64,000 nucleotides of DNA from contig JAKADO010000005.1 of NCBI GenBank assembly GCA_021820485.1, positions 1-64,000 of the forward strand. The letters run 5' to 3'. The notes below the pieces were generated by a model. The model was not told where the DNA came from. It did no database searches and was given only the letters and a program-made list of their open reading frames with translations. Shown here in pieces: positions 15,509-18,240 of the stretch. Made by a program: the position numbers and the translations under genes. The stretch comes from Bacillota bacterium (GTDB lineage: Bacteria > Bacillota > Sulfobacillia > Sulfobacillales > Sulfobacillaceae). Position 1 is the first letter of the stretch. Each line of letters opens with the position of its first letter.

Positions 15509-15944
15509 GGCCGTCCGCTCCTTTCCCGAGTAGCGTGCTATACGGCTTGGTTGTTACCCTACTATATGGAACAACCATCTTGGATGTGAGAGCAGTTGTC
15601 AGCCGTATCATATTATTCGCTCTTTAACTGCGTTTTCCTTCCCGTGGCCTTCGGAAAAACCGGAGTTTCCTTTCGTCAATCGGTGTTCCCCAAAGACCGG
15701 TGGAATTGGATTCTCTTGCCAGTATTATGCCCAATCGAAGGGTGGAAAGCCGAGCGAGCCGTCCATGCGAAAGATTTTTTTCGTGGGTCGAGGTTCGGCT
15801 TGGGCCCGTCAACCGGGTATACCCATGGTAGTACAAAATTGCCTCCACCGGCATGGGAATCCTAGGACTTTCGGAGAAATGTTGGAGCGGCAGCCATCCC
15901 GTGGGACGGTTGCATTCCCCAGAACCGAGCGGTATGGTGAGGAT

Positions 15945-16517
15945 ATGCGCGAAGAGATCGATAAATTGCTGATATATTTGGGACGCATCACCGCCCAGAC
16001 CCCGCATCTGCAAATGATTTTAGGCTTTCTGCTGTCCGATCCGAGCCGGGTGCGTTTCGTGGCCACGCTGGATACAGGGGGTGAGTTGGCGATGGCGATT
16101 TCAGCCCATCGCCGCATTGAACTGCCCATTTCACCGTGGCAGGGCTACATCCGCGGCGTGCCTGTGCCCGACCCGATTGTCTGGATTCAGGCGGCGCGTG
16201 CGATGCGCGGCGACATTGCGATTCGCCTGTCCTCGGACGACCCACTGGTCATGCAGCTGGCCAACCCCCTCATTGCCCCGGAGCGCGAACGTCGCGAGCG
16301 GTTGGTGATGGAGGATCGGATGCAGGATCTGCGTCAAGAATTGGACCGGACGCTCGATTTATACAACGAAGTCCGCCATCTCATGGAGATTGATCATGAG
16401 AGGCATCAAGAGCTCGAAACCTTTCTCAGCATGGCCGAGAGGGAAATGCAAAACATGGGGCGTGAGCTGTCCCATTTGAAGGAACGCATCGAAGGCGACA
16501 ACCCGCCCTCCTTGTAA
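15945..16517 (+). CDS. Hypothetical coiled-coil protein
   Basis: ORF with coding-like composition; C-terminal coiled coil (RMQDLRQELDRTLDLYNEVRHLMEIDHERHQELETFLSMAEREMQNMGRELSHLKERIE); ATG at 15945 inferred. Confidence 0.6.
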   Translation: MREEIDKLLIYLGRITAQTPHLQMILGFLLSDPSRVRFVATLDTGGELAMAISAHRRIELPISPWQGYIRGVPVPDPIVWIQAARAMRGDIAIRLSSDDPLVMQLANPLIAPERERRERLVMEDRMQDLRQELDRTLDLYNEVRHLMEIDHERHQELETFLSMAEREMQNMGRELSHLKERIEGDNPPSL

Positions 16518-16570
16518 TTGACGCCTCCTCCTTTCGGCATACTATGCGCTGTGCGAAAGGAGAGTCATCA

Positions 16571-17413
16571 ATGGTCCATGACCGCCGCGAACAAGTGCGC
16601 CTCCTCAATCAAGACCTTATGGGCGAGCATCAAGCCATCGTCCATTATTTGACGCATGCTTGGACCGTCGTGCGTAAGTTTGGTCCCAGCATTGAGGCCA
16701 TCGCCCGTGACGAAATGCGCCACTTCAAATGGCTGGCGCATACCATTGTAGGGCTAGGCGGCGTACCTGACTTGACGCCGCCCGATGAGCTTCCCCAGTT
16801 TTCCGGCCTTGACGCCCTCAACTACGACATCGACGCGGAAGAAGAGGCAATCAGCCAGTATTTGGCGCATCAGCGCCAAATTGCCAACGAGCACGTCCAA
16901 GCCCTCATCGGCCGCATTGTGGTGGACGAGCGCGATCATCGACGGACATTTCTCGACCTGCGCTCGCAGTGGGTGGAACAGGACGCCGAACCGACACCGG
17001 AGCGCTCCGCCAATCCCCAAGTGGTGCATTGTTTTGAAACGTTGGTGTCCGAGGAATATCAAGAGATCTTGCGCTACCTTCTGGAGAGCTTTCTCACTCG
17101 CCATACCCGCGCTATGGGCATGAGCGCGGAAGATCGGGCGATTGACGAGATGAAGCATATGAGCATAGTGGCCGAGACACTGGCCGACTTGGGCGGACAA
17201 CCCCGCTTCATGTTGCCGAAGGGCGGCGACCACTCCGACGAATTGCGCCTTTATGGGGACTTGCGAGCGTGGGCTTCAGCCGAGATGCCAGGCCTCGTGC
17301 CCCTCATTGATCGCATTATCAGCCATGAACAATACCAAGAGCAAAGCAACCGGGATGCCGACTGGACCGTTGGATCAGGGTTGCAGGGAGGATGGGCCGG
17401 ATGGATGTCTTGA
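16571..17413 (+). CDS. Duplicated ferritin-like protein, candidate encapsulin cargo
   Basis: Two ferritin-like blocks (EHQAIVHYL/DEMRHF/DERDHRR and EEYQEILRYL/DEMKHMS/SHEQYQEQ); C-term DADWTVGSGLQGGWAGWMS resembles TVGSL-type encapsulin targeting peptide; overlaps encapsulin gene. Confidence 0.8.
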   Translation: MVHDRREQVRLLNQDLMGEHQAIVHYLTHAWTVVRKFGPSIEAIARDEMRHFKWLAHTIVGLGGVPDLTPPDELPQFSGLDALNYDIDAEEEAISQYLAHQRQIANEHVQALIGRIVVDERDHRRTFLDLRSQWVEQDAEPTPERSANPQVVHCFETLVSEEYQEILRYLLESFLTRHTRAMGMSAEDRAIDEMKHMSIVAETLADLGGQPRFMLPKGGDHSDELRLYGDLRAWASAEMPGLVPLIDRIISHEQYQEQSNRDADWTVGSGLQGGWAGWMS

Positions 17414-18240
17414 GTCATGCAGAAGCGCCCTTAAACGAAAAAGAGTGGGCGCATGTGATGGAAGCCGTGACCCAGGTGGCCCGCCGCCAGTTGGTGGCGC
17501 GCCGGTTTCTGCCGTTGTACGGCCCCATTGGAGCCGGGGTGCAGGTCGTCCAGGTTGATCGAACCCCAGGTTGGGATCTGGCGCAGGTCAGCATGCAGGG
17601 GGACGCTGAGGATGCTGTGCCCGAATCCCGTTTATATCAGCGCGTGCCGGTCCTGTCGAAGGACTTCATCGTCGACTGGCGCGACTTGGAGCAAGCGCGC
17701 ATCACGGGAGGCATGCTGGATTGGTCCAAAGCCGAGGCGGCCGCCAGCTTCGTGGCGTTGGCCGAGGATCATGTCATTTTCCATGGCATTGCAGACCAAG
17801 GGCTGGACGGACTGTTGACCGTCGAGGGGCGGCACGTGCTGCCGACTTCTGGGTGGGAAGAGCCCGGCAGTGGATTTCGTGATGTCGTGAGGGCCGTAAG
17901 TCATCTGACCTCGGCCGGCTTCATGCCGCCGTTAACGGTGGTTGCCGGAGTGACCATCTACGCCGCCTGGAATCGGCTGTACGGCAACAGCGGCGTACTG
18001 GAGGTGGAGCAAATCGAAAAGCTGGTCGGTGGCGGCGTCTTTCAGTCACCCTTGGTGCCGGATGATACGGTGGTTGTCTTGGCCCCAGGTCCTGAGAATA
18101 TGGACTTGGCTGTAGGGCTGGATTTCAATGTGGCCTTTGTGGAAACAACCCGCATGAACCACATTTTCCGGGTGTTGGAAACGATTTCGCTGCGCATCAA
18201 ACGTACCGGCGCCATCTGCCAGATCTGGCAAGAAAGCTAA
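17401..18240 (+). CDS. Family 1 encapsulin shell protein (linocin/HK97 fold)
   Basis: LNEKEWAHVMEAVTQVARRQLVARRFLPLYGPIGAGVQVV..., GIADQGLDGLLT, VVLAPGPENMDLAVGLDFNVAFVETTRMNHIFRVLETISLRIKRTGAICQI. Confidence 0.9.
   Translation: MDVLSHAEAPLNEKEWAHVMEAVTQVARRQLVARRFLPLYGPIGAGVQVVQVDRTPGWDLAQVSMQGDAEDAVPESRLYQRVPVLSKDFIVDWRDLEQARITGGMLDWSKAEAAASFVALAEDHVIFHGIADQGLDGLLTVEGRHVLPTSGWEEPGSGFRDVVRAVSHLTSAGFMPPLTVVAGVTIYAAWNRLYGNSGVLEVEQIEKLVGGGVFQSPLVPDDTVVVLAPGPENMDLAVGLDFNVAFVETTRMNHIFRVLETISLRIKRTGAICQIWQES

Follow-up and report, generated by a model that had tools for sequence, protein, structure and literature searches.

The window analysed here, a stretch of 64,000 nucleotides from a member of the Sulfobacillaceae which we take to be an acid-loving, Sulfobacillus-like bacterium, carries a ferritin-like gene that runs into an encapsulin gene. 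The question raised by this locus is whether the first protein is a cargo of the shell formed by the second and, if so, what its two ferritin-like halves would do there. Both open reading frames described in the first-pass annotation, a 280-residue cargo and the encapsulin which it precedes and overlaps, are present in the window (Table 1). The family 1 identity proposed for the shell protein was confirmed by the curated NCBIfam model NF041155 'family 1 encapsulin' (235.7 bits, cut-off 100) and by Pfam Linocin_M18 (4.6e-61). Among PDB entries the encapsulin matched Myxococcus xanthus EncA best, at 241 bits, and next the Q. thermotolerans shell at 196, with that of T. maritima at about 56; since the first two scores are far above those of T=1 shells, sequence comparison suggests a large shell of the T=3/T=4 class.

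Table 1. Features of the cargo-encapsulin locus, in window coordinates.
Feature	Position	Strand	Basis or remark
Inverted repeat CTCCTTTCG..CGAAAGGAG around CGGCATACTA	16528..16561	+	Genus-conserved; cargo Shine-Dalgarno (SD) in right arm
Cargo, two-bundle bacterioferritin-like protein, 280 aa	16571..17413	+	Pfam Ferritin 2e-14 in two stretches; start matches homologues
Bundle 1, helices 5-31, 35-61, 79-103, 107-136	16583..16978	+	AlphaFold2
Bundle 2, helices 149-175, 186-206, 223-238, 240-261	17015..17353	+	AlphaFold2, hhalign register
Predicted targeting-peptide core WTVGS (residues 265-269)	17363..17377	+	TVG conservation, known-tag likeness, encapsulin association
Encapsulin SD GGGAGG, within final cargo codons	17386..17391	+	Sequence
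Family 1 encapsulin shell protein, 279 aa	17401..18240	+	Curated models; start by homologues and SD spacing

The junction of the two genes had to be read differently from the initial proposal. A start of the encapsulin at 17392 was rejected, as this ATG directly abuts GGAGG, leaves no SD spacing and has no homologue support, while the start at 17401 lies 9 nt from the SD and matches the MDVL start of the homologues. The overlap therefore exists, at 13 nt rather than 22, and it represents ordinary coupling, given that relatives have the two genes either overlapping or separated by up to about 50 nt. Part of the cargo tail had also been thought to be encoded by sequence that doubles as the encapsulin SD: the SD does lie in the last cargo codons, where it encodes part of Q272-G274, but this is 3' of the WTVGS codons, so that ribosome binding does not fall within the tag core.

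The claim of two ferritin-like halves was supported both by sequence and by the structure prediction proposed as its check. Residues 1-142 and 145-262 are homologous in a profile-against-profile comparison (hhalign E 1.8e-24), and AlphaFold2 gave two four-helix bundles. A model made from 13 sequences reached a pLDDT of 81.5 and a pTM of 0.76; one made from 56 sequences reached 90.6 and 0.86, with eight helices forming the two bundles and low confidence for the last 20 residues, the tail. The top Foldseek matches of the cargo model in the PDB were 2qqy, the mini-bacterioferritin entries 9qq4 and 9qq5, and bacterioferritins, the matches listed being single-bundle chains that each cover one cargo bundle. 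The closest solved relative in sequence terms is a 306-aa chain named 'Bacterioferritin' (9viw), whose alignment spans both cargo halves (E 6e-32). A single-chain bacterioferritin pseudo-dimer is the best reading of the cargo.

The two halves are nevertheless not equivalent in their di-iron ligands. The ferroxidase centre of Mper-mBfr is formed by Glu, Glu, His, Glu, Glu and His (PMC13168243), and alignment to this Mper-mBfr/Bfr centre gives bundle 1 a complete set (E19, E48, H51, E90, E120 and H123) that is invariant in 56 of 56 two-bundle proteins. ExxH-type ligands had been ascribed to each half; bundle 1 does have two ExxH motifs, but intact ExxH sites in both halves are not supported, as bundle 2 has ExxH in helix B' (E193..H196) and ExxQ in helix D' (E253..Q256). 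Bundle 2 keeps E162, E193, H196 and E253, has Q256 in place of His, and is of uncertain register in helix C' in the Sulfobacillales; its only invariant positions among the 56 proteins are E162, Y163, M194 and H196. At position 256, the Sulfobacillales encapsulin operons (n=18) have Gln in 14 cases, Asp in two, Glu in one and His in one, compared with His in all 12 Sulfobacillales two-bundle proteins without encapsulin, which are tail-less and free. As the Chloroflexota two-bundle proteins mostly have His at this position with or without encapsulin, the loss of the bundle 2 His is lineage-specific and not a general effect of encapsulation. The di-iron site of bundle 2 is degenerate in the Sulfobacillales encapsulin lineage.

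The cargo protein ends in ...DADWTVGSGLQGGWAGWMS, a C-terminus proposed at the outset to be a TVGSL-like targeting peptide. T266, V267 and G268 are invariant in 13 of 13 family operons within a tail that is otherwise divergent and gappy; the motif is the same as in the tags of M. xanthus EncB and EncC and of IMEF, and the usual Leu after TVGS is absent. A scan of the genome contigs and relatives with the cargo alignment yielded 59 different two-bundle proteins, and the tail motif was found in all 31 located beside an encapsulin and in none of the 28 without one (Fisher 1.8e-17, shared descent uncorrected); it occurred in 0.8% of shuffled tails. The tree of these proteins requires at least five state changes and offers four independent contrasts on well-supported branches, all of them concordant (sign test p 0.125). 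The role of the WTVGS tail as a predicted encapsulin-targeting peptide for this cargo is consequently well supported, and with it the pairing of an encapsulin and a duplicated, tail-bearing ferritin-like cargo put forward in the first-pass annotation.

Of the 41 genomes sampled, 13 (counting that of the window) have the operon, and in each of them the cargo gene immediately precedes the encapsulin gene, which argues against a chance reading. The genome of the window (about 92% complete) contains one encapsulin and three PF00210 matches, namely this cargo, a Dps-like protein and a free two-bundle paralogue of 265 aa (L103, G000:C60) with no tail and no encapsulin alongside. A reading of this second copy as a pseudogene ('2 TAG') was discarded, because a profile search and the list of open reading frames show it intact. 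One of the state changes on the tree falls within the genus-level clade of the window: in WH4.bin36 (L048 5777-6431) the cargo ends just past helix D' and no encapsulin follows; on the opposite strand, the frame that lies downstream looks like part of a transposase. Natural controls are available in this family: one genome with both a tagged and an untagged paralogue, and a genus-mate that has lost tail and shell alike. Several other loci are recorded here as separate observations. L114, listed with L048, lacks the encapsulin and the cargo tail, and at L002, in the same-genus genome G005, the cargo frame has a TAA at the E19 codon, possibly a pseudogene or a sequencing error. At L014-L016 (G007:C130) the encapsulin is split over frames and the cargo truncated, as in a decaying operon, and that genome still has a free paralogue (L118). 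A divergent system (L093 4165-5768) has the reversed order, encapsulin and then cargo, with the cargo tail SPWSVGSLKPK.

Upstream of the cargo, TTCGGCATACTA within 16528-16561 is conserved in the genus with an inverted repeat on both sides, the spacing differing between species, and the combination is a possible promoter or RNA hairpin. A role of CGGCATACTA as a regulon-wide promoter was not supported: the motif has just 2 genomic sites and is outnumbered by its reversed control (forward 3, reverse 7). An open reading frame at 15825-16517, 5' of the cargo and a possible third part of the operon, encodes a coiled-coil-like protein and is syntenic in most Sulfobacillus-type operons; it matched no Pfam family and could not be traced at L061 and L062, two loci of greater divergence.

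A duplicated cargo had been regarded as unusual; that it is new is not supported by the literature. Two-bundle 'Bfr' encapsulin cargos with targeting peptides are listed in the 2021 survey of Andreas and Giessen (PMC8346489), and a 2024 review names such cargos Bfr-like FLP or 'Flp+Flp', describes their second bundle as variable, models one of them and raises the question of a cage within a cage (PMC11202242). The operon is thus one more case of a kind already recognised, though as yet little characterised. Like the present cargo, these proteins, reported from Firmicutes, Chloroflexi and further groups, consist of two four-helix bundles in succession, end in a targeting peptide and have a family 1 encapsulin as neighbour; the cargo likewise has a conserved di-iron centre in bundle 1 and a variable bundle 2, and the drift of bundle 2 throughout the two-bundle set agrees with the published variability. 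Nothing fundamental differs, the particulars here being the Sulfobacillus-type lineage, the WTVG-x tails, the Gln in place of the final bundle 2 His and the tail-less free paralogue. With Mper-mBfr (PMC13168243) the cargo shares a similar bundle fold (TM 0.84-0.85 to target), the bundle 1 di-iron ligands, the Met and the lack of an E-helix, but a mini-bacterioferritin is a single bundle with no extensions whereas the cargo is tandem, tagged and degenerate in one site. Regarding the mini-bacterioferritin signature His29/Gly34/Met52, the Met is present, the His column corresponds to Ala30 (with His29 one residue off) and the Gly register is unclear. Classical bacterioferritin, a 24-mer, resembles the cargo in fold, ferroxidase ligands and haem-type Met, and differs in that the cargo has no E-helix and two bundles per chain; the score against TIGR00754 is 21.3 bits for a bacterioferritin cut-off of 125.55. 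EncFtn/EncB and IMEF carry the same TVGS tag class on a ferritin-like cargo of different architecture, and the cargo stays below the cut-offs of the EncB model (33.1 against 90) and of TIGR04535 (22 against 125). A structure or biochemistry of an encapsulated two-bundle bacterioferritin was not found in the literature consulted, and what is added here is the association of tail and shell, a free paralogue in the same genome, the one-sided decay that affects bundle 2, and an invariant methionine pair.

This pair concerns a possible haem. In Mper-mBfr the haem ligand is Met50, at the two-fold dimer interface (PMC13168243). Met49 of the cargo aligns with it and, in the half-against-half hhalign comparison, with Met194 of bundle 2. 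Both methionines are invariant in 56 of 56 two-bundle proteins while the rest of bundle 2 drifts, and Met194 and H196 are kept even in the sequences that lack E193 or H256. The invariance and the alignment with Met50 lead to the proposal that a haem may be held between the bundles by Met49 and Met194, as in bacterioferritin, to which we give even chances. The Arg13 of Mper-mBfr that holds the coproheme propionates corresponds to Leu16 in the cargo, where Arg is not conserved, and this makes the type or presence of haem uncertain.

Our main reading, with a probability of roughly 0.8, is that the two genes encode an encapsulated two-bundle ferroxidase, in other words an iron-storage encapsulin. 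The encapsulin would assemble into an icosahedral shell, into which the C-terminal WTVGS tail would draw the cargo, a pseudo-dimer of mini-bacterioferritin-like bundles. The di-iron ferroxidase centre of bundle 1 would then oxidise Fe(II), and the ferric mineral would build up either within the shell itself or within a cage that the cargo forms there. Bundle 2 would complete the pseudo-dimer, with Met194 opposite Met49 holding a haem that could serve as the electron path for iron release. The computational results themselves comprise the two homologous bundles, the full ligand set of bundle 1, the degenerate one of bundle 2, the invariant methionines and the link between tail and encapsulin; that the cargo is loaded, acts as a ferroxidase, binds haem and assembles as a cage within a cage, and how large the shell is, we infer. 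Three points weigh against the reading: the Leu that usually follows TVGS is missing, the tree offers four contrasts only, and one genus-mate has the stop at the E19 codon.

The same encapsulated protein could also use bundle 2 as a structural filler, with Met194 serving for packing and no haem bound, and this we rate well short of even. The degeneracy of bundle 2 in Sulfobacillales operons, the missing propionate-binding Arg and the published description of Bfr-like FLP proteins, which mentions no haem, are in its favour, but against it Met194 and H196 are kept in all 56 two-bundle proteins, also in those that lost E193 or H256, and Bfr and mBfr bind their haem through a Met at exactly this position. 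An encapsulated, rubrerythrin-like enzyme for oxidative or peroxide defence instead of storage appears unlikely: bacterioferritins and mini-bacterioferritins are the best relatives on both counts, sequence and fold, and the operon showed neither a rubredoxin domain nor a partner gene, against a weak Pfam Rubrerythrin match (2.8e-7) and a genome in which the Dps-like protein and the free two-bundle ferritin could cover storage elsewhere. That free, tail-less paralogue also lends some plausibility to a cytosolic ferritin merely adjoining the encapsulin gene, a reading made very improbable by the strict association of tail and encapsulin and by the invariance of TVG inside an otherwise divergent, low-confidence tail.

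The family as a whole may be viewed, with somewhat less than even confidence, as covalently joined bacterioferritin dimers whose chains each contain a single dependable ferroxidase site and an internal bis-methionine haem site, and which would pass between the free and the encapsulated state by acquiring or losing a short tail. The encapsulated forms of the Sulfobacillales would mostly have lost the second ferroxidase site, leaving bundle 2 as a haem-holding electron relay inside the encapsulin. If the Met49/Met194 haem is true, this would be, to our knowledge, the first ferritin-like cargo of an encapsulin to contain haem, with a possible bearing on how encapsulins release iron.
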